A DNA stretch of 64,000 bases from the NCBI GenBank assembly GCA_016191115.1, contig JACPPG010000044.1, positions 124,001 to 188,000 on the forward strand, given 5' to 3'. The first letter of the stretch is position 1. Every line of letters begins with the position of its first letter. Below, one piece after another: positions 3,285-16,926 of this stretch. The stretch is from Planctomycetia bacterium (lineage in GTDB: Bacteria; Planctomycetota; Planctomycetia; Pirellulales; JACPPG01). A program made the translations under genes and the position numbers. The notes beneath the pieces are model-generated. The model saw nothing but the letters and a program-made list of their open reading frames with translations. It had not been told where the DNA came from and ran no database searches.

Positions 3285-5288
3285 TCAATACTCGTTCGAT
3301 TCGCCGCGTTCCCCCAATCCGGCCGTGGTTTTCACCACCTGCCTGATCGTCTTTGCCGCGACCTCCGCCTTGAGCTTGTCGATGGCCGCCGCCACCGGCA
3401 TCGCCCCCAGGTCTCCTTCCAATCGGTCGCGGACCGAGACAGTGCCGGCGGCCGCGTCCCGCTCCCCGACCACGAACATGTACGGGATCAGCTTCAATTG
3501 GGCGTCGCGGATCTTGGCCCCCAGCTTCTCGGCCCGATAGTCGCCACTTACGCGCAACCCCTCGGCCCGCAGGTTCTGCTCGACGCCCCGGCCGTATTCC
3601 TCGGCCTTCTCGGTCACGGTCAGCACCCGCGCCTGCTCGGGCGCCAGCCACAGCGGGAACGCTCCGGCAAAATGCTCGATCAGCACGCCGATGAACCGCT
3701 CCATTGAGCCAAGCGGCGCCCGGTGGATCATCACCGGCCGGTGCGGCTTGTTGTCCGGGCCGATGTACTCCAGGGCGAACCGGTCCTCGCTCGGCAGGTT
3801 GTAGTCCAACTGCACCGTGCCCAACTGCCACTCCCGGCCGATGCAATCGGTGACGACGAAATCGATCTTCGGCCCATAGAACGCCGCCTCGCCCAATTCG
3901 GGCGTGCAGCCGGGCAGATTCATGTCGCGGGCGACGCGTTCGATGGCCGCCTCGGCCTTGGCCCAACTTTCGGCCTTGCCCACGTACTTATCGCTCGCCG
4001 GATCGCGGAAGCCCAGCCGCACGCGATAGTCGTCCAGCCCCAGCGTGCGGAGCACGAGCTGGGCCATCGCGATGCACTGGCGGAACTCATCGCCCACCTG
4101 CTCCTCGGTGCAGAAGATGTGGGCGTCGTCCTGGGTGAAGCCGCGAACCCGCGTCATGCCTCCCAGCTCGCCCGACTTCTCGTAACGGTACACCGTGCCG
4201 AACTCGGCCAGCCGCACCGGCAGGTCGCGATAGCTGCGCGGCTTCGAGCGGTAGATCATCACGTGGTGCGGGCAGTTCATCGGCTTCAAGAGGTAACGTT
4301 CGCCTTCTTCCATCTCGATCGGCTTGAACTGGCTGTCGGCGTAGTAGGGGTAATGGCCCGAGATCTGGTACAGCTCGACGCGGCCGATATTGGGGGTGTA
4401 GACCGGCTCGTAGCCGCGCTTGATCAGTTCGTCGCGGACGAATGCTTCGAGCTGCCCACGGATGATGGCGCCGCGCGGCAGCCACAGGACGAGCCCCTGC
4501 CCGACCAGCGGACTGACGGTGAACAGCTCGAGCTGTTTGCCCAGCACGCGGTGGTCGCGCCGTTTGGCCTCCTCGATCATCGCCAGATACTTGTCGAGCT
4601 CTTCCTTCGTGAACCAGGCCGTGCCGTAGAGCCGCTGCAACTGCTGCCGGCTGGCGTCGCCCTTCCAGTACGCGCCCGCCACGCTCAATAGCTTAAAGGC
4701 GCCGATCGCGCCGGCGCTCGGGATGTGGCGGCCGCGGCACAGGTCCAAGAACTCACCCTGGCGGTAGAACGACAGCGTGCGCTCGTCGGCCAGGCCCGAA
4801 GCGATGTGCTCGACCTTCAGCGTCTGGGCCAGGTCGCGGCAGATTTTGACGGCCTCGTCGCGCGGCACTTCGATCCGCTCGAACTCCTCGTCGTCGCGGA
4901 CGATTTTGGCCATCTCCGCCTCGATCTTGGGGAAGTCCTCCTCGGACAGCTTGTGCGGCATGTCGAAGTCGTAGTAGAAGCCGTTCTCGATCGTCGGGCC
5001 GAACGCCAGTTGCACGTTGTCGAACAGCCGCATCACGGCCCGCGCCATCACGTGCGCGCAGGAGTGCCGCATGATGCGCAGGGCCTCGGGGTCCTTGCGG
5101 GTCAAGAGCTTGAGCGTCGCTTCGCCGGATTCCGGTAGCGGCGTGACCGAGTCAACCACCTGGCCGTCGACCTCCGCGGCCAGCGTCGCCTTGGCCAGCC
5201 GCGGGCCGATCTCCTCGGCCACGTCGATCGGACGCACGGGACGGGAATATTCGCGCACGCTGCCGTCGGGCAATTTCACCTTGAGCAT
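3285..5288 (-). CDS. thrS: Threonyl-tRNA synthetase
   Basis: Class II aminoacyl-tRNA synthetase that charges tRNA-Thr and edits mischarged Ser; cytoplasmic. The chosen ATG at 5288 ([14 protein letters not shown]) gives 667 residues; a longer frame reaching upstream lacks family similarity. In order: TGS domain (residues 1-62), editing domain with the HSCAHVMA motif (about residue 77) and the CRGRHIPS zinc or editing motif (about 187), then the catalytic core. The core has motif 2 ([30 protein letters not shown]), the MNCPHH zinc-site region and motif 3 ([13 protein letters not shown]), followed by the C-terminal anticodon-binding domain. The zinc ligands Cys (in MNCPHH) and His (in QDDAHIF) are visible. 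It is followed 599 bp downstream by infC, the conserved thrS-infC order. Confidence 0.97.
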
Positions 5289-5860
5289 GGTGTTTGGGGG
5301 CCGCTGCGCGGCGCTGGAACGTGACCCAGAGGCCCCTACCCTTCGGCAGGGATCACCGGATGAAGGCCGCGCGCGTCGCCGATTGGTGGTTCGAGAGCGC
5401 CAGTGCGCGACCGGACGTCGATACAAAGGACGCCTGGAAGGCAGCCGCGCGGCATTGCCGGGCAAAGTATAGGGCCAGCCGGCCATCCAGCAAAGACAAC
5501 CTCGTCGGCGGGCAGGTTCGAGCGACCAGGCCACCGGTTTATCCGCGGATTGCGCAGATTTCGCAGACAGAAGACCAGGGAAGGCGAGGGGCGAGGCTCC
5601 CGCCGAGCCGCCGTCCGAGGATGAGCGATTCGCCCCGCACGGCCGTTCTGTTTTTCAAAATGGCGAGGCGGGAAAATGGGACTGGCTCCGAGCATAAACA
5701 GCGTCAAGCCCTTTCAGACCAACGTTTCGTCTCGGTGCCTGTCCCACTTTCCCGCCGGCGCGCCGCCGGCAAGCTTGAATCTGTGAACGGCCCTGGATTC
5801 GCCCCGGCCGTGGGTTCACCGCGCCGGTGGCAATCTGGTATGATTGCGTGCGACCTACAA
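5289..5860. other. Intergenic region upstream of thrS
   Basis: 572 bp with no convincing gene. It holds half of a GGGCGAGGCTCCCGCCGAGCC palindrome (about 5589-5612) and copy 2 of the dispersed repeat. The thrS promoter must lie here, but I cannot identify it. No strong Shine-Dalgarno precedes the thrS ATG. Confidence 0.5.
5644..5796 (-). repeat. Dispersed repeat, copy 2 (about 150 bp)
   Basis: Same element as 2823-2962 and 56593-56745 but inverted. It contains the AAGTGGGACAGGCACCGAGACG stretch missing from copy 1. It ends 64 bp before the tRNA-Val gene. Confidence 0.85.
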
Positions 5861-5934
5861 GGGCGATTAGCTCAGTTGGTTAGAGCACCAGCTCGACAAG
5901 CTGGGGGTCACAGGTTCGAGCCCTGTATCGCCCA
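5861..5934 (+). tRNA. tRNA-Val (anticodon GAC)
   Basis: A complete 74-base cloverleaf. Acceptor arms GGGCGAT and ATCGCCC pair fully, with A as discriminator. The D-stem is GCTC/GAGC. The anticodon stem CCAGC/GCTGG encloses the loop TCGACAA. The variable loop is five bases, and the T-arm is ACAGG-TTCGAGC-CCTGT. The 3' CCA is not encoded. The anticodon is GAC, reading GUC valine codons. The base before the anticodon (position 33) is C rather than the almost universal U. It is the only plus-strand gene in the first 27 kb. Confidence 0.95.
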
Positions 5935-8101: not shown

Positions 8102-10300
8102 TCACTCGCTCCCTTTTCGCGCCGCCAACTGGCGCGCTCGTTCGAGTCCTGATTTGGCTTCCGCCGAATCGGGCCGCAGGCGCAACGCCTCTTGAAAACG
8201 CACAATCGCCTCGTCCGGCTCGCCGAGTTCCAAAAGCACGGTGCCCAAGGCCACCAGCGCCTCGACGTTCGCCGGCGCAAGGCGCACTACTTCGCCATAG
8301 TGCTTCGCCGCGGGCCGGCGCTTGCCTTGCTGCCGCAGCAGGTCGCCGAGCGTTTGATGGGCCTCGACGAAATCAGGATCGAGCCGAATCGCCTCGGCAA
8401 GGTGATCGGCTGCCCGATCGAGCTCTCCCTTCTTCGCCAGCGCCAGCGCCAGTGCCTGATGAGCGTCGGCATATTCCGGCTTGAGGCGGAGGGCCTCGTC
8501 GAACTGGGCGATCGCCTCGCCCCACTTGCCCTCGCCAAGAAGAACGGTGCCCGATCCGTAGCGCGGGTTGGCGAAACCTGGCCGGAGGCCGCTCGCGTAG
8601 GCAAAATGCTCCTTGGCGTCATGGGGCCGATTCACACGAAGCAGGGCGAAACCGAGGCCGTTCTGGGCTTCGCCGTCGTTAGGATCCAAACTCACGGCCT
8701 TCCGGTAGTGCGCGAGCGCCGCTTGGAGTTGGCCAGGCTGAAATCCGTCGCGATCCCCCAGCTCCAGCAGGATGTGCCCCATGTTGCCCTGAACCGCCGA
8801 GTCGTCCGGTTTGATCGCAAGCGCCGTCTTGAATTGTTCGTAGGCTTCGTCGTAGCGCGACTGGGAATCCAGGAGCGACCCTAAGTTCACCCGCGCGTTC
8901 CAGTTGGCTGGGTTCTTGGCAACGATCGTGCGATAGAAGGTGTCGAGATCGCGGTACGTGCGGGCCTGCTGAAAGGCAAGCGCGCCGAGCGCGACCAACA
9001 GGATTGCCGCCGCACCGACAGCGACGACCGACAGCAACGGGGGGCGGGCATCTTGCCCGCCTTTGACGCGGTTTTTCGGCGCGAAGGCGGGCAAGATGCC
9101 CGCCCCCCGTGAAACGGCAGTCGTCGCCGCGGCCGCCGCCAAAGCGATCAAGGCCACCGCGGCATGATATTGGAAATGATCCGCCACGTAAGAAAAGCGC
9201 GTGAAGTAGACGTTGAAGAAGCCCAACACCGGCGTCAGCACTCCGGCGAAGATCAGCACCGCGGCCAGCGGTCCGCGGCCGATCCGCTCGCGCGCCAGCC
9301 AGAGCGCGGCGATCACGGCGATGCTCGCTATGGGAAAGACATATTGCCACCACGCGCGGGCGTCGACGCTCCAACGCGGGTAGAAAAAGATGATCGGATG
9401 AGGCCAGGCCAGCTTGCCCGCATAAAACCACAGGACGCGCCCGGCGACCAGAATCCGCTCGACCGGGGTGCGATCCCAGTCGTGCCCGCGCGCCACCACG
9501 TGATACTTCTCGACCCACACCGTGACCAGGCCCAAGGTGACGCTGAGCACGAAAAACGGCATGAGCGGCCACACGTCGGCCCAGCCGATCCGCCCGCGCT
9601 TCCACCAGACGATCACCAATAGCACGGCCGGCACAGTGACGACGGCTGTCTTGCTCAAAAGCGCCGCCGCGAACAGCGCCAGCGACAAGGCGTAGAAGGA
9701 CCACCGCCGTCCGGCGGTCGCAGCGGGACCATCGGTCGGCTCCACGGGCGCGAACCGCAGGTAGGCAAGCATCGACAGAAGGGCAAACGCCAGCGAGACG
9801 ACGTTCTTGCGCTCGGTGACCCAGGCAACGCTTTCCACGCACACCGGGTGGACGGCGAAAATCGCCGCCGCCAGCCAGGCGCCCGGCACGCGCAACCGCC
9901 GTAATAACCGCCATACCAGCACCGCGTCGAGCCCGTGTAACAGGACATTGACCAGGTGGTACCCGAACGGTCGGAACCCGTAGAGGTGATACTCCAGCCA
10001 GAACGTCGTGCATACAAGCGGATAGTATTGCGGCAGCGACGTGGGGACGAACCACATGCGGTGCAGGCCGTCGACGGTGCGAAGGGTCGGGTTGCCGGTG
10101 ACGTACGTCTCGTCGTCCCAAACGAATCCGGCCGCCAGCGCCGGCGAGAAGGCGGCGATGACCATCGCCACGAGCAGGCAGCCGGCCAGAATCGATCGCC
10201 ACGGCCCGGTCGATGCCGCGGGTGAGGTCGCCTCGTGCGGGGAAACGCTCTTGTGCGACCTCGGTCGGCCGCGGCCCTCGGTTGCTCTGCGAGACTTCAT
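8102..10300 (-). CDS. TMTC-like membrane protein with TPR domain, array gene A
   Basis: 732 residues from ATG 10300 (MKSRRATEGR), 16 bp after the stop of gene B. A basic cytoplasmic N-terminus precedes about eleven hydrophobic segments (to about residue 445), then a TPR domain to the end. The first external loop has WDDETYV (about residue 59), an acidic pair like that of GT-C glycosyltransferases. HPVCVESVAWVTERKN, LLSKTAV, GRGPLAAVLIFAG and ADHFQYHA are shared by all seven array members. This layout recalls eukaryotic TMTC1-4 (CAZy GT105, dolichyl-phosphate mannose-dependent O-mannosyltransferases). Residues about 397-421 (GILPAFAP..GGQDARPP) are encoded by an inserted palindrome. It is the last gene of the array. 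The function is inferred only; the substrate is unknown. Confidence 0.9.
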   Translation of the reverse strand: MKSRRATEGRGRPRSHKSVSPHEATSPAASTGPWRSILAGCLLVAMVIAAFSPALAAGFVWDDETYVTGNPTLRTVDGLHRMWFVPTSLPQYYPLVCTTFWLEYHLYGFRPFGYHLVNVLLHGLDAVLVWRLLRRLRVPGAWLAAAIFAVHPVCVESVAWVTERKNVVSLAFALLSMLAYLRFAPVEPTDGPAATAGRRWSFYALSLALFAAALLSKTAVVTVPAVLLVIVWWKRGRIGWADVWPLMPFFVLSVTLGLVTVWVEKYHVVARGHDWDRTPVERILVAGRVLWFYAGKLAWPHPIIFFYPRWSVDARAWWQYVFPIASIAVIAALWLARERIGRGPLAAVLIFAGVLTPVLGFFNVYFTRFSYVADHFQYHAAVALIALAAAAATTAVSRGAGILPAFAPKNRVKGGQDARPPLLSVVAVGAAAILLVALGALAFQQARTYRDLDTFYRTIVAKNPANWNARVNLGSLLDSQSRYDEAYEQFKTALAIKPDDSAVQGNMGHILLELGDRDGFQPGQLQAALAHYRKAVSLDPNDGEAQNGLGFALLRVNRPHDAKEHFAYASGLRPGFANPRYGSGTVLLGEGKWGEAIAQFDEALRLKPEYADAHQALALALAKKGELDRAADHLAEAIRLDPDFVEAHQTLGDLLRQQGKRRPAAKHYGEVVRLAPANVEALVALGTVLLELGEPDEAIVRFQEALRLRPDSAEAKSGLERARQLAARKGSE
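9037..9110. repeat. Perfect 27-bp palindrome inside array gene A
   Basis: Arms at 9037-9063 and 9084-9110 are exact inverted complements over 27 bases (core GGCGGGCATCTTGCCCGCC), with a 20-base loop. It is translated in frame as a linker between two membrane segments. It is the same family as 8022-8096. Confidence 0.9.
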
Positions 10301-10316
10301 ACGAGCGACCAGCCGG

Positions 10317-12497
10317 CTAGTTTCGTGGCTTGCGCGATGGCAATCCCAATGCGCGCTGCATGCCATCTTGCGCGGCGCGCGAGTCGGGCTGCACGCGGAG
10401 CGCCTCCTGGAAGTAGTTCATCGCGCGGTCGGCGTCGCCTTGAGCCAGGGCGATCTCGCCCAATTGGACCCAAGGCTCGGCGAACGTCGGCCGCAGCCGG
10501 ATAGCTTCGTTATAGTGCTCGATGGCCTGATCCACTTTTCCCTGGGCCGCCAGCACGCCGCCCAGCAGATAGTGCCCATGCTCGGGCACGCGATCACGCT
10601 TGAGCGACAATTGCAACCGCTCGACCGCCTCGTCGAACCGGCCCTGCTTCGCCAGGGCGATCCCAACGCCCTGCAGGATATCGGGCTCGTTGGGCATGAT
10701 CGCCAATGCGCGGTCGAAGAAGGAGCGTGCCTCCTCGCCGCGTCCCGATTCCGACAGGCACAGGCCAATGCCGTACATCGTCTTGGCGTCGTAGGGGCGG
10801 AGCTCCAACGATCGCGCGAGATGCGTGAAGGCCTCGTCGACCTTGCCGGCCTGCAATAGCGCGAATCCGTAGGCAGTGCGTGCCTGCGGGAAGTTAGGGG
10901 TCATCGTGACCGCCTTCTTCAAACGCGCGAAGGCCTCTTCGGCCTGTCCGGGACGAAATCCCGTTCGCGAGCCGATATTGAGCATGAATGAGCCCGATTC
11001 GCTCAGCACCAAGGTCTCGTTGGGATTGAGGCGCATGGCCTCGTTGTAATACTGTTCGGCCTCGGCATAGCGGCCTTGCTTGTTGCGGATGCCGGCAAGA
11101 TTGAGCCAGCCCGACCAGCTTTGCGGGTTCTTCTTCAGGATGTCGAGCGCCAGGGTCTCGATATCGTGGTGGATCTGCGCCTGGTGAAACGTGAGTGCCC
11201 CCAGCACGGCCAGGAGAATCGCGACTGCGCCTGCGGCGAGGGCGCGGCGGGCCAGCGGGGGGCCGGCATCTTGCCCGCCTTCAGCCCCGGCCGATACGCC
11301 AGAGGCGGGCAGGATGCCGGCCCACCGAGCCACGAGCGCCCAGCCGACCGCCGCAAGCGCTATCAGGGCGATCGCCGCGTGATACTGGAAATGGTCGGCC
11401 ACGAACGCCAGCCGCGTGAAGCTCACCGTGACGAATCCCAGCACCGGCGCGAGCATTCCGGCGAAGATCAAGACGGCCGCCAGCGGTCCGCGCCCGATGC
11501 GGTTTCGCGCCAGCCACAAGCCTATAATCACGCCTACCGCCGCCAACGGGTACAAGTATTGCGAGGGCGCGTGCGCGTCGATCGTCCACTGCGGATAGAA
11601 GAACATGAGCGGGTAGGGCCAGAACACCTTTCCCGCGTAGAACCACAAGGCGCGCCCGGCGATCAGCAGCCGCTCGAGCGGGCCATAGACGCCCACGACC
11701 CACGATCCTTCGAGGTGTTGCCGCTCGACCCACATCGTAATCAAGCCCAGCCCGAGCGCCACGCCGAAGAACGGGAGCAACAGGCCCGCGTCGAACCAGG
11801 GGATGCGGCCGCTCTTCCACCAGTAGATCACCAAGAGTACGGCCGGCATGGGGGCGACGGCCGTCTTGCTCGCCAGCGCCGCGGCAAACAGCACGAGTGC
11901 CAGCGCGTAGTACCAAGGCGAAGGGGGATCGGCATCGTCGGCGCATCCTTCGGGCGGCGCGAACCGCAGGTAGTAGATCATTGACGCGAGCGCCAAGGCC
12001 AGCGACAAGACGTTCTTTCGTTCGGCGACCCAGGCGACGCTCTCGGCGCCCACCGGGTGCACGGCGAAAACGGCCGCCGCCAGCCAGCCGCCCGGCACCT
12101 TCAGCCTCGCCAACAACCGCCACAGGAGAACGGCGCTCATCGCGTGCAGCACGATATTGACGAAGTGGAAGCCCGCCGGCTGCAGCCCCCACAAGTGATA
12201 CTCGATCCAGAACGTAGTGAACGTCAGTGGGTAGTATTGCGGCAACGAGCCGGGGGCGAACCACATCAACCGCAAGCCGTCGAGCGTGCGCAGCGTGACG
12301 TTGTCGCCGATATACATCATGTCGTCGTAGCCGTCGATCTTGGCGGAGAGCGCCGGCAGATACGCCACGAGGGTCATGAGCACCAGCGCGCCGGCCGCCA
12401 CCCATATCGACCGATGGGGCGCGCGATCGCCCGGGTCGCGCGCAGGCGTTGCCGTAGCGGTGGACGACGCTTCTTGGTTTGTCTCGTTCGACGACAT
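10317..12497 (-). CDS. TMTC-like membrane protein with TPR domain, array gene B
   Basis: 726 residues from MSSNETNQEAS. It has the same plan as its neighbours: about eleven membrane segments, then TPRs from about residue 445, including the register KVDQAIEHYNEAIRLRPTFAEPW. The first loop reads GYDDMMYIGDN (about residue 55), keeping both aspartates but with Tyr instead of the Trp seen in A and D-G. It shares YDD, YIGDN and YPLTFT with gene C, which suggests that B and C form a closer pair. The membrane loop at about residues 391-415 (GILPASGVSAGAEGGQDAGPP) is encoded by a palindromic insertion at the position equivalent to that in A. 114 bp containing another palindrome separate it from C, so an internal promoter or attenuation point is possible. 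Confidence 0.9.
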   Translation of the reverse strand: MSSNETNQEASSTATATPARDPGDRAPHRSIWVAAGALVLMTLVAYLPALSAKIDGYDDMMYIGDNVTLRTLDGLRLMWFAPGSLPQYYPLTFTTFWIEYHLWGLQPAGFHFVNIVLHAMSAVLLWRLLARLKVPGGWLAAAVFAVHPVGAESVAWVAERKNVLSLALALASMIYYLRFAPPEGCADDADPPSPWYYALALVLFAAALASKTAVAPMPAVLLVIYWWKSGRIPWFDAGLLLPFFGVALGLGLITMWVERQHLEGSWVVGVYGPLERLLIAGRALWFYAGKVFWPYPLMFFYPQWTIDAHAPSQYLYPLAAVGVIIGLWLARNRIGRGPLAAVLIFAGMLAPVLGFVTVSFTRLAFVADHFQYHAAIALIALAAVGWALVARWAGILPASGVSAGAEGGQDAGPPLARRALAAGAVAILLAVLGALTFHQAQIHHDIETLALDILKKNPQSWSGWLNLAGIRNKQGRYAEAEQYYNEAMRLNPNETLVLSESGSFMLNIGSRTGFRPGQAEEAFARLKKAVTMTPNFPQARTAYGFALLQAGKVDEAFTHLARSLELRPYDAKTMYGIGLCLSESGRGEEARSFFDRALAIMPNEPDILQGVGIALAKQGRFDEAVERLQLSLKRDRVPEHGHYLLGGVLAAQGKVDQAIEHYNEAIRLRPTFAEPWVQLGEIALAQGDADRAMNYFQEALRVQPDSRAAQDGMQRALGLPSRKPRN
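11257..11326. repeat. Palindromic element inside array gene B
   Basis: Arms GGGGGGCCGGCATCTTGCCCG and the complementary GGCGGGCAGGATGCCGGCC flank a 22-base loop. It is an imperfect relative of the element in gene A, read in the same frame and inserted at the equivalent loop. Confidence 0.85.
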
Positions 12498-12521
12498 GGC
12501 TGGAACTTACACGCGGCTATC

Positions 12522-12589
12522 GGGAGGGCGAGGCTCCTGCCGAGTCGGCACCGGGTATTAAACCCGGCTCGGCGGGACCCTCGCCCTCC
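12522..12589. repeat. Palindrome between array genes B and C
   Basis: Arms GGGAGGGCGAGGCTCCTGCCGAG and CTCGGCGGGACCCTCGCCCTCC pair with few mismatches; an inner hairpin ACCGGGTATTAAACCCGG is also present. It is the only sizeable interruption in the array. Confidence 0.8.
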
Positions 12590-12611
12590 GTGTACACGAT
12601 TTCTATTTCTC

Positions 12612-14732
12612 CTACGGGCGCTGCTCCTTCAGTTTTTGGGCCATGGCCTTCTGCATTCCATCTTGTGCGGCGATCGAGCCGGGTTCGATCCGCAGGGCCT
12701 CGTTGAACGAGGCGATCGCCTCATCCACGTGCCCCTGGCTGAGGGCGATCTCGCCCAGGCCGTTGATCGCTTCCACGTAGCGGGGGCGCAGCCGCAGTGC
12801 CTCGGCGTAGCACGACCTTGCGCGATCGAATTGGCCCTGCTTGGCGAGTGCCTTGCCCATCGTGTAGTGGGTTGCGGGCCTTTTGGCGTCGCGGCGCAGG
12901 GCCGTGTCGAGATGGCGCATAGCCTCGTCGAACCACCCGCCGTCGATCAGCACGGCGGCCATCTCCTGGTGAACTGCAGCGTCGGCGGGACTGATCCGCA
13001 GCGCCGCCTCGAAGGTCTTGAGCGCCTCGGCCGGCCGTCCCTCGGCCGCGAGCGCCTGGCCCATCGCGAAGATGGTCGTGGCGTCGTTGGGCTTCAGCTT
13101 GACGGCCATGGCCAGGTGCGGCAGCGCTTCCGCGGCATGCCCCGACCGCAAGAGCGCGAGCCCCAAACCTGTCTGCGCCGGCGCGTAGTTCGGCGACAAC
13201 TCGGCCGCGCGGCGCAGGTTATCCACCATTTCATGCGTTTCGTCGGGCGACAAGGGGGTACGCCGTCCCAGGTTCAACAGAAGAGATCCGATATCCGTCA
13301 GGATCTCCGGATCGTTGGGGTTGTAGCGGCGGGCCTCGCGCAATAGCGCGATCGCCTCGGCCGTTTTGCCCCGCATATTGCGGGCGCCGGCGAGGTTCTG
13401 GTAGGCGGGCCAGCTTTCGGGATTCTTTGCCAATGTGTCGGCCCCGAGCGTCTCGCGATCGTGGTAGATGCGTGCCTGACTGAACGTCAGCGCAGCCAGC
13501 ACCGCCAGGAGGAGGATCATTCCCGCCGCGCAGGCCCATGCCGGGACGTTTAACCGCGATGCCCCCATGGCGCATCCGGCCGCGAACAGCGCCACGAGCG
13601 CGATCGCCGCGTGGTACTGAAAATGGTCAGCCACGAGCGCACAACGCGTGAAGCTCATGTCAAAGAACCCTAGCACCGGCGTCAACATGCCCGCGAAGAT
13701 TAGCACGGCCGCCAATGGCCCGCGCCCGATGCGATGCCGCGCCAGCCACAAGATCACCATAACCACGGCGGCCGCCGCCGGGTACAAATACTGCCACCAG
13801 ACGCGCGCACCAATGGACCATTTCGGGTAGAAAAAAATGAGCGGGTGCGGCCAAACCAGCTTCGCCGCGTAAAACCACACGGCCCGGCCGGCGATCAAAC
13901 CCCGGTGCGCGAGATTGAAGTGCTGTCTGATCCACGGTCCGCTCGCATCCCGGATCTCGACTTGCACCGTGACGACGGCCAGGGCGATCGCCAGGACGAA
14001 AAAGGGGACAAGGGGGCGCGCGCCGCGCCAGGTGACGCGCCCTCGTTTCCACCAATCGATGACCAGGAGCGCCCCGGGCAGCGGCGCCACGGCTGTCTTG
14101 CTCAACAGCGCCGCGGCAAATAGCGCCAAAGATAAGCCGTAGTAGAAAGCCGGCCGCGCGCCGCGCCGCGCCGGCCCATCCTCCTCGTCGGGCGGAGCGA
14201 ACCGCAGGTAGCACAGCATCGACAGGAGCGCCAGGCCCAGCGAGAGGACGTTTTTTCGTTCGGCCGCCCAGGCGACGCTTTCGACGCACACCGGGTGCAG
14301 GGCGAAGACGGCGGACGCGAACCAGGCCCCCGGCACACGCAAACGCAACAAGACCCGCCACACCAGCACGGCATTGGCCGCGTGCAGCAGGATGTTAACC
14401 AGGTGGTAGCCGAACGGGTTGGGCCCCCACAATTGGTATTCGATCCAAAAGCTCGTGAACGTCAGCGGGTAGAACTGCGGCGTCGTGCCTGGGACCCACA
14501 TGCGCAACAAACCGCCGAGCGACCGAAGGGATGCGTTGTCGCCAATGTAGAGATCGTCGTCGTACAGGTGGATGTCGGCCGCGAGCGCCGGCAGATAGGC
14601 CGCCACGACGATGGCCACTAGCGCCGCGGCGGCGGCGATCGCGCGCCCCTGGACGGCGCGCGGCGCGACCCCGGTATCGGCGGAACCGCCGGCCGTCGCC
14701 TGGCCTGTCTCGGATTCGGCAATCACTTTCAT
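12612..14732 (-). CDS. TMTC-like membrane protein with TPR domain, array gene C
   Basis: 706 residues from ATG 14732 (MKVIAESETGQ), seven bases after the stop of D; the longer upstream frame overlaps D and is rejected. The first loop is LYDDDLYIGDN (about residue 57), the variant shared with B. HPVCVESVAWAAERKN, LLSKTAV, GRGPLAAVLIFAGM and ADHFQYHA are present. The loop that carries insertions in A, B and G is short here (ASRLNVPAWA), giving the uninterrupted form. The C-terminal TPR block has about six repeats, for example HVDEAIASFNEALRIEP. The RMWVPGTTPQFYPLTF segment replaces the RMWFxPxSLPQYYPL of most paralogs. The close spacing to D suggests translational coupling. The role is likely membrane-bound glycosyl transfer with TPR-mediated partner binding, by analogy only. 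Confidence 0.9.
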   Translation of the reverse strand: MKVIAESETGQATAGGSADTGVAPRAVQGRAIAAAAALVAIVVAAYLPALAADIHLYDDDLYIGDNASLRSLGGLLRMWVPGTTPQFYPLTFTSFWIEYQLWGPNPFGYHLVNILLHAANAVLVWRVLLRLRVPGAWFASAVFALHPVCVESVAWAAERKNVLSLGLALLSMLCYLRFAPPDEEDGPARRGARPAFYYGLSLALFAAALLSKTAVAPLPGALLVIDWWKRGRVTWRGARPLVPFFVLAIALAVVTVQVEIRDASGPWIRQHFNLAHRGLIAGRAVWFYAAKLVWPHPLIFFYPKWSIGARVWWQYLYPAAAAVVMVILWLARHRIGRGPLAAVLIFAGMLTPVLGFFDMSFTRCALVADHFQYHAAIALVALFAAGCAMGASRLNVPAWACAAGMILLLAVLAALTFSQARIYHDRETLGADTLAKNPESWPAYQNLAGARNMRGKTAEAIALLREARRYNPNDPEILTDIGSLLLNLGRRTPLSPDETHEMVDNLRRAAELSPNYAPAQTGLGLALLRSGHAAEALPHLAMAVKLKPNDATTIFAMGQALAAEGRPAEALKTFEAALRISPADAAVHQEMAAVLIDGGWFDEAMRHLDTALRRDAKRPATHYTMGKALAKQGQFDRARSCYAEALRLRPRYVEAINGLGEIALSQGHVDEAIASFNEALRIEPGSIAAQDGMQKAMAQKLKEQRP

Positions 14733-14739
14733 GATGGCG

Positions 14740-16926
14740 CTACGGACGGTTCTGCCCCGTGGCTTGCAGGGCCCGTTTGAGGTTCTGCTTTGCGACGGCG
14801 TGATCGGGTTGCAAGCGCAGGACCTGCTCAAGGTAGGGGATCGCGCGGTCGGCTTCCTTCAGCTCGATCAACGACGCCGCCAGGTTGTTCAAGGCGTCAA
14901 CATAGTTCGGCCGCAACTGCACGGCACGCGTATACTCGGCCGCAGCCTGGCGGAAATCTCCCTGCCGGAACCGGGTCTGCCCCAGATCGGCGTGAAATTC
15001 CGCCGTGCGCGGCTTAAGTTGCGTCGCCGTAGTCAGGTGCCCGGCGGCCTCGTCCAGACGTCGCAACTGGATGAGCGCCACGCCCAAGGCGTGGTGCGCT
15101 TCCGCGTAGTCCGGGTCGCAGTCGATAGCCTTTTGAAAGTGCTCCGCCGCTTCGTTCCATTGGCCCAGCCCCCCCAAGGTCGTCCCCATGCGAAACAGCG
15201 CATAGGGGCCGTTGGGGCGGACCTCCAGGCTGTGCTGGAAGTATTTGATCGCTTCCTCAGGCTGGTTCGCGTCGACCAACGCAGTGCCCAGGTTGTCGAG
15301 CGCCTCGACGTAGTCGGGATTCAAGCGGAGCGCCTCGCGGTAGTAGTCGATGCCGGTCGCCAGCTCGCTTGGGCCGGGGCGGTACCCGGCCGCTTCGCTG
15401 GCACGTGCGTAGATAATGCCCATGTTGGTCTGAATGCGCGGCTCCTCGGGCTTGATGCGCAGGGCCTCCTTGGCCAGACGGGCCGCCTCCTCGCGCCGGC
15501 CGAGGCCGTGCATGTGCAGGCTGAGATTCAGGTAGGCCGTCCACGAGCCCGGATTGTGCTCGATCACGTGCGTGTACAGGGTTTCGAGGTCGTGATAGAC
15601 GCGGGCTTGCACCATAGTCATCGCCGCAAGGACCACGAGCACCGCCCCTGCCGCAAGCCGCGCGAAGCGGCGGCCATCGGGCTTCAACCGCGCCGCCCAC
15701 GTAGCGGCGCCCGCCGCCACGAGCGCAATAAGTGCGATGCTGGCATGATATTGAAAATGATCGGCCACGAACGAGAACCGCATCGGGTAAACGTCGAAGA
15801 ACCCCAGCGCGGGCATAAGGACGCCGGCGAAGAGGAGCGCTGCCGCCAGCGGGCCCCGCCCGATCCGCCCCCGCGCCAAAAACAGCACGACAAAAGTCGC
15901 CGCCGCGGCCAGCGGAAACAGGTACTGCCACCACGCGTGCCGGTCGATGGTCCAGCGCGGGTAGAAGAACACGAGCGGGTAGGGTAAGACAAGCTTTCCG
16001 GCGTAGAACCACAGCGCGCGACCGGCGATCAGTACGCGGTCCACCGGAGTGAAGCCAAAATCGAGTCCCTTGGCGCCGACGTGGTTTACCTCCAGCGAGA
16101 CGGTAAACAACCCCAATCCCGCCCCCAGCAGAAGAAAGGGCACAAGCGGGACGACGTCGGTTGCCTGAATCCGTCCGCGCTTCCACCAGTAGATCACAAG
16201 CACGACGGCCGGCATCGACGCGACCACCGTCTTGCTCAATAGCGCAGCCGCGAACAGCACTAGCGCCAGCACATACCACGGCCAACCGCCAGACCATCGT
16301 GCGGCCAAAAGCGTCCACGATCCGACGTGGTGGCGCGAGCCCTCGGCGCCGGCCGACGCCTTGTCATCTCCCTCGGGCGGGGCGAAACGAAAGTACGCCA
16401 GCAGCGACGCCAGCGCGAGCACGCCGGCCAATACGTTCTTCCGCTCCGTCGCCCAGGCCACGCTCTCGACGTGGACCGGATGCACGGCGAAGATCGCCGC
16501 GGCGAGCCAGGCGCCGGGCACGCCTAACCGCGAGAGCAACCGCCACAAGAGAATCGCGCTCGTCCCGTGCAGCACGATATTGACCAGGTGATATCCGAGC
16601 GGCGCATCGCCCCACAGGTGATGCTCGATCCAGAACGTCGTGTGGACGAGCGGATAGTACTGCGGCAAGGACCGCGGCTCGAACCACATTCGCTTAAGCC
16701 CCCACAGCGTGCGCAGGGTCGGATTCTCGGTGACGTAGTGCTCGTCGTCCCAGATGAACCCGTTTTCCAGGGCAGGCCAGTACGCGGCCAGCGCCAAGGC
16801 CACGAGCGCGCTGCCCCACAGCGCCGCCCGAGCCAGACCGTCGGCGCCGGTCCGGGCGTTGCGACCGCGGCGGGTCGTCGGCCGCGGCTCTGGTTGCCGG
16901 CGTTCGTTTTTCCTCTGCGTCTTCAT
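14740..16926 (-). CDS. TMTC-like membrane protein with TPR domain, array gene D
   Basis: 728 residues from MKTQRKNERRQ, a strongly basic cytoplasmic tail (TTRRGRNAR) that orients the first membrane segment. The first loop is FIWDDEHYVTENPTL (about residue 58). HPVHVESVAWATERKN is the version closest to the HPxHxExVA signature of eukaryotic TMTC proteins. LLSKTVV, GRGPLAAALLFAGVLMPALGF and ADHFQYHASIALIAL follow. There is no palindromic insertion in the loop near residue 395 (ARLKPDGRRFARL). The TPR block contains clear repeats such as QPEEAIKYFQHSLEVRPNG and YAEAHHALGVAL. The C-terminus ends ALQATGQNRP. Shared PPEGD motifs after the fourth segment link D with G. Confidence 0.9.
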   Translation of the reverse strand: MKTQRKNERRQPEPRPTTRRGRNARTGADGLARAALWGSALVALALAAYWPALENGFIWDDEHYVTENPTLRTLWGLKRMWFEPRSLPQYYPLVHTTFWIEHHLWGDAPLGYHLVNIVLHGTSAILLWRLLSRLGVPGAWLAAAIFAVHPVHVESVAWATERKNVLAGVLALASLLAYFRFAPPEGDDKASAGAEGSRHHVGSWTLLAARWSGGWPWYVLALVLFAAALLSKTVVASMPAVVLVIYWWKRGRIQATDVVPLVPFLLLGAGLGLFTVSLEVNHVGAKGLDFGFTPVDRVLIAGRALWFYAGKLVLPYPLVFFYPRWTIDRHAWWQYLFPLAAAATFVVLFLARGRIGRGPLAAALLFAGVLMPALGFFDVYPMRFSFVADHFQYHASIALIALVAAGAATWAARLKPDGRRFARLAAGAVLVVLAAMTMVQARVYHDLETLYTHVIEHNPGSWTAYLNLSLHMHGLGRREEAARLAKEALRIKPEEPRIQTNMGIIYARASEAAGYRPGPSELATGIDYYREALRLNPDYVEALDNLGTALVDANQPEEAIKYFQHSLEVRPNGPYALFRMGTTLGGLGQWNEAAEHFQKAIDCDPDYAEAHHALGVALIQLRRLDEAAGHLTTATQLKPRTAEFHADLGQTRFRQGDFRQAAAEYTRAVQLRPNYVDALNNLAASLIELKEADRAIPYLEQVLRLQPDHAVAKQNLKRALQATGQNRP

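Follow-up and report, generated by a model that had tools for sequence, protein, structure and literature searches.

The window, a stretch of 64,000 nucleotides of planctomycete DNA, contains a single tRNA gene called by ARAGORN, tRNA-Val(GAC), at 5861–5934 on the plus strand. Rfam RF00005 matches the same bases over the full length at 69.2 bits, in agreement with the original prediction, and the cloverleaf is complete, with the CCA end unencoded. The divergent neighbour is thrS (3285–5288, minus strand), encoding a threonyl-tRNA synthetase with the Pfam domains tRNA-synt_2b, HGTP_anticodon, tRNA_SAD and TGS, which provided the sequences for the tree and the reference point for synteny. A scan found one sigma-70-like site against 0.1 expected (TTCACC-18-TATGAT, the second hexamer preceded by TG; 5815–5844, plus strand), 16 bases upstream of the tRNA; it is a putative site by consensus match only. 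Further along, 8102–16926 holds a tandem family of four similar, successive minus-strand genes of about 730–750 amino acids each, whose products have a membrane-like N-terminus followed by TPR repeats.

The tRNA departs from its family at one base. Its anticodon arm (5888–5904, plus strand) is built from the stem strands CCAGC (5888–5892) and GCTGG (5900–5904), positions 30–31 being GC, and from the loop TCGACAA (positions 32–38; 5893–5899), which also occurs in relatives. Read directly, position 32 is T5893, position 33 is C5894, the anticodon GAC occupies 5895–5897 and A38 is base 5899. The C at position 33 had been recognized earlier, with its base number given as 5893, one short of the true position. 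Every stem is fully paired, so that the earlier description of an otherwise perfect cloverleaf holds. The identity bases of tRNA-Val in E. coli are A35, C36 and A73, and all three are present. Cloverleaf and anticodon, as called by ARAGORN and Rfam, are those of an elongator tRNA-Val, while the U33 of the family as usually drawn is replaced by C, making the gene a variant of that family. Its anticodon is GAC, without the CAU anticodon and body of an initiator tRNA, and it displays none of the marks of a tRNA pseudogene: broken pairs, a low score, lack of conservation or redundancy with an intact copy. At the gene level it belongs to a C33 elongator isoacceptor conserved within a clade.

The assembly from which the window is taken (6.03 Mb in 93 contigs, 94% complete) yields 57 Rfam tRNA matches, all of which were reread by ARAGORN, giving 58 distinct calls. 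T33 is found in 56 of these; C33 is confined to two, tRNA-Val(GAC) and a Thr(CGT) that belongs to a tRNA array of contig C80. The valine tRNAs are three, GAC with C33 and TAC and CAC with T33. A canonical GAC copy elsewhere had been named as a possible objection to the gene, and no second GAC tRNA was found in the 94%-complete assembly by Rfam and ARAGORN. The array on C80 (L060, G000:C80:36500-38474) is a dense run of low-scoring, unusual tRNA genes beside the normal set, in which the Thr(CGT) is accompanied by two Pro(TGG), Lys, Gln and Ile; it probably lies on a mobile element or prophage. Another unusual call (L063:86-177; G000:C9:32237-32326, minus strand) has a long variable arm, a Leu-like body and the anticodon GTC (Asp), and adjoins an oddly shaped Ile(TAT) call.

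Searching 57 related genomes with BLAST recovered the identical 74 bases in the genome itself and in three others, from three other families, together with matches of 93–99% in many more. The GAC tRNAs from this search that were reread by ARAGORN carry either U33 or C33, the latter with stems that covary so as to remain paired (CCAGC/GCTGG, CTAGC/GCTAG, CAAGC/GCTTG). An exact tRNA-Val(GAC) pattern admitting C or T at position 33 matched 147 of 196 genomes of the order: 117 have C33 only, 29 have U33 only and one (G018) has both, placing C33 in 118 of the 147 genomes. The same C occurs in 119 of the 150 matches, which argues against the sequencing error at this base that had been envisaged. The exact pattern overstates the share of C33, because re-searching the 49 unmatched genomes with one mismatch allowed adds U33 genomes: among the matches listed from that search, which cover 26 genomes, 17 have a U33 tRNA-Val(GAC) with A53 and nine have none.

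Two phyla were sampled, Planctomycetota and Verrucomicrobiota. The exact pattern has a match in 284 of 392 Planctomycetota genomes. A draw of 119 genomes from this phylum, with contigs and coordinates identical to those in the 392-genome set, gave 88 matches in 84 genomes, with C33 in 53 and U33 in 32, one of these having both. In Verrucomicrobiota, C33 was found in one of 69 matching genomes (115 searched). Cultured carriers of C33 include Bythopirellula polymerisocia and Lacipirellula limnantheis. The record L160 (WYBR01000109.1), titled Vicinamibacteraceae, draws a Planctomycetota set when taken as centre, and its title looks wrong. A pattern for C33 in tRNAs of this shape with any anticodon, applied to the same 196 order genomes, yields 119 Val CGAC matches, six tRNA-like genes with odd anticodons and two non-tRNA matches; by this measure C33 appears nearly specific to Val(GAC) among tRNAs of this shape in the order. 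The six tRNA-like genes (L533-L538; Rfam tRNA 46–52 bits) come from six order genomes and are related, sharing C33 and a near-identical arm, CCAGA-CC-NNN-A, with the anticodons ATG, GTG, AAG and GAT; two of them lie near another tRNA.

The state of position 33 has changed repeatedly. On a tree of 78 ThrRS sequences (LG+G4, quick search), in which 75 rows have a known state, 17 changes are needed at position 33, compared with 25.4 for shuffled labels, and well-supported branches force at least 11 switches. These figures are a count and not a rate, because the genomes were picked to contain both states, and ThrRS may have a history of its own. Position 38 follows position 33, U33 going with U38 and C33 with A38 or C38. 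Within the order, A38 accompanies C33 in every one of 119 matches, and T38 accompanies U33 in 30 of 31. The phylum draw has A or C at 38 in 53 of its 55 C33 matches and T38 in 25 of its 33 U33 matches, with C33 beside T38 (2 of 55) and U33 beside C38 (6 of 33) as exceptions; the latter combination is found in 7 of 69 in Verrucomicrobiota. Eleven independent contrasts could be drawn on the ThrRS tree, and position 38 switches together with 33 in nine or ten of them and in none in the opposite direction (sign test p ~0.002). The stem bases 30–31 = GC track C33 in eight or nine of the 11 (L107, L112 and L129 being entered as non-GC for this trait). From such comparisons C33 is best described as an inherited, reversible state of one isoacceptor in Planctomycetota, neither a mutated copy nor an error. 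Of the two readings allowed by the original prediction, true variant and mutated copy, the former is upheld by conservation across many genera and families and by the compensated stems, and the latter falls.

Genes of either state can have thrS as their neighbour, those with C33 in the window, G017, G409, G570, G226, L102 and L144, and those with U33 in G015, G035, G063, L107, L111, L112, L127, L129, L135 and L136; in many other genomes this adjacency is missing. The presence of both states beside thrS favours change in place, and mobile replacement of the gene, considered because viral contigs carry C33 copies, was rejected as a candidate. Block conversion of the anticodon arm may have occurred.

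C33 tRNA-Val(GAC) is present in viral contigs also, where ARAGORN confirms 68 of 73 pattern matches. The coupling of 33 with 38 is weaker there but present (Fisher p 4e-12 among the matches listed): 59 distinct C33 sequences have A or C at 38 in 43 cases and T in 16, and the 61 U33 sequences tabulated have C38 in seven and T38 in 54, with 12 G38 sequences left out. Phage tRNAs outside the search target have C33 in 47 of 1935 cases among the matches listed, some probably mis-called. Five viral contigs (L254, L292, L223, L273 and L274) carry a C33 tRNA-Val(GAC) with a planctomycete-like body, and two of these have 31 tRNAs in the piece examined; they are possible phages of planctomycetes.

GUC, the codon of this tRNA, is the commonest valine codon, making up 44% of valine codons in the window. 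Codons were counted in the longest non-overlapping ORFs, not in annotated genes. The C33 set had 21 samples, namely the window plus 20 pieces no longer than 20 kb, and the U33 set had 20. The GUC share of valine codons is 39.9% in the former and 41.2% in the latter, and GUC/(GUC+GUU), set against other C/T-ending codons, gives no clear difference between them (Mann–Whitney p = 0.09). Avoidance of GUC, which would point to a poor tRNA, is not clearly seen in the C33 samples. At a given GC3, the C33 samples have a GUC share of valine 6.1 ± 2.3 points below that of the U33 samples, kinship being uncorrected. The evidence is weak because all U33 samples come from one family (f16), but the difference could represent a mild cost of C33. 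Since the gene is conserved, orthologous and the only GAC copy found, and since its codon is the commonest for valine, it is almost certainly a working chromosomal elongator tRNA and the sole GAC tRNA of its genome. Its anticodon predicts that it reads GUC, and GUU by wobble.

A reason for the coupling may lie in the shape of the loop. In unmodified E. coli tRNA-Phe the loop collapses through U32-A38 and U33-A37 pairs, which A37 modification prevents in the cell, according to a portion of PMC5485724, and part of PMC11199890 describes A37 beside C36 as usually unmodified in E. coli. If A37 were unmodified here, the pairs U32-A38 and U33-A37 could form in a loop U32-U33-G-A-C-A37-A38 and reduce it to three bases. 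One way out would be to keep U33 and place U at 38; the other would be to keep A38 and place C at 33, which would hold the loop open because C33 cannot pair with A37. The ribosome would then decode without the U-turn contact from U33 N3-H to phosphate, a loss perhaps tolerable because two of the three codon pairs are G-C. Folding with ViennaRNA gives a 33–37 pairing probability of 0.67 for UUGACAA, which closes to a triloop, as against 0.00 for UCGACAA and 0.01 for UUGACAU; a U32-A38 pair is also predicted in the C33 arm. The combination predicted to close is rarely seen, T32-T33-A37-A38 occurring in none of the 31 U33 tRNA-Val(GAC) of the order, in 1 of 33 in the phylum draw and in none of 69 in Verrucomicrobiota. 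Among the matches listed, distinct phage tRNAs with T32-T33-A37 have A38 in 0 of 72 cases with the GAC anticodon versus 303 of 506 with other anticodons. Several observations, the U32-A38 pair predicted in the C33 arm among them, count against this reason. Among the matches listed, tRNA-Gly(GCC), which also has C36, combines U33 with A38 in 38 of its 44 phage members. Many C33 tRNAs carry C38, with which folding predicts no U33-A37 closure; such cases would fall outside the closure reason, and their C33 may be a remnant or a case of tuning. We infer, with a confidence just short of even, that C33/A38 and U33/U38 are two ways to keep an unmodified loop open. The explanation taken as a whole, a working sole GAC tRNA with an inherited and reversible C33 and a position 38 coupled to it so as to keep the loop open, may be right or wrong with equal probability.

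It is conceivable, if rather unlikely, that decoding strength is being tuned instead, C33 weakening a strong codon–anticodon pairing and position 38 being adjusted to a common affinity, with no loop closure involved. This would cover the coupling for C38 also, and would explain why the exceptional anticodon is one that forms two G-C pairs. Uhlenbeck and others have reportedly worked on uniform ribosome binding, which would count in the same direction. In favour, too, is the 32-38 pair, cited as a decoding modulator in parts of PMC9023292 and PMC11199890. Tuning alone, however, leaves unexplained why U32-U33-A38 is nearly absent from Val(GAC) and common elsewhere. Near-neutral drift, in which U33 is dispensable for a strong codon and the association with 38 and the stem arises partly from shared history or block gene conversion, is less likely again. 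The 11 or more switches at position 33 fit such drift, and the tracking of C33 by the stem bases is as expected from block exchange, but the strict conservation in large clades, with A38 invariant beside C33 in the order, and the near confinement of C33 to one isoacceptor speak against it. Editing of C33 to U in the transcript, restoring a canonical mature tRNA, has as its sole support that C-to-U tRNA editing occurs in other organisms; it is very improbable, since it would make the repeated lineage switches to a genomic U33, with change at 38, unnecessary. The chance of a mutated, unexpressed copy or a sequencing error is negligible, given an identical gene, over its full length, in each of three genomes from other families, the compensated stems and the lack of another GAC tRNA in the searches of the genome, with no supporting evidence found.

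C33 elongators are already known. In the Sulfolobales, as set out in part of PMC7668247, C33 is fixed across the clade in one elongator isoacceptor, tRNA-Cys(GCA), and to that extent the two cases are alike. The Sulfolobales tRNA is archaeal, however, and its C33 is said in the same portion to accompany G27oU43, whereas the planctomycete tRNA is a bacterial Val(GAC) with its stem pairs intact, coupled to position 38 and switched many times. The eukaryotic initiator tRNA-Met, intact and functional, likewise has C instead of U33, as given in part of PMC9023262, but it enters the P site, whereas the planctomycete tRNA has an elongator body and a valine anticodon. The bacterial tRNA-Val(GAC) with the loop TTGACAT (Akkermansia, L219) is the same isoacceptor with the same general body; it combines U33 with U38 where the gene in the window combines C33 with A38, and planctomycetes show both states beside thrS. 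In yeast, U33C in tRNA-Gln leads to a pseudohyphal phenotype, which a portion of PMC3664417 interprets as poor decoding. A search by title and abstract, with most subscription journals outside its reach, found no report of C33 in planctomycete or bacterial tRNA-Val.

Elongator tRNAs are regarded as having U33 almost without exception, and many genomes of one phylum appear to decode their top valine codon with C33. Tentatively, and with somewhat more doubt than attaches to the loop reading, the U-turn base may be switchable within one phylum, in at least 11 swaps mostly made together with position 38, with C33 acting as a genome-encoded substitute for the modification of A37. For annotation there is a warning that C33 tRNAs should not be dropped as pseudogenes. 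Related species that differ naturally in having U33 or C33, some of them cultured and with closed genomes, offer a ready experiment on the role of U33. If the proposal is true, the ribosomes of many planctomycetes would decode the valine codon they use most with no U33 in its tRNA.
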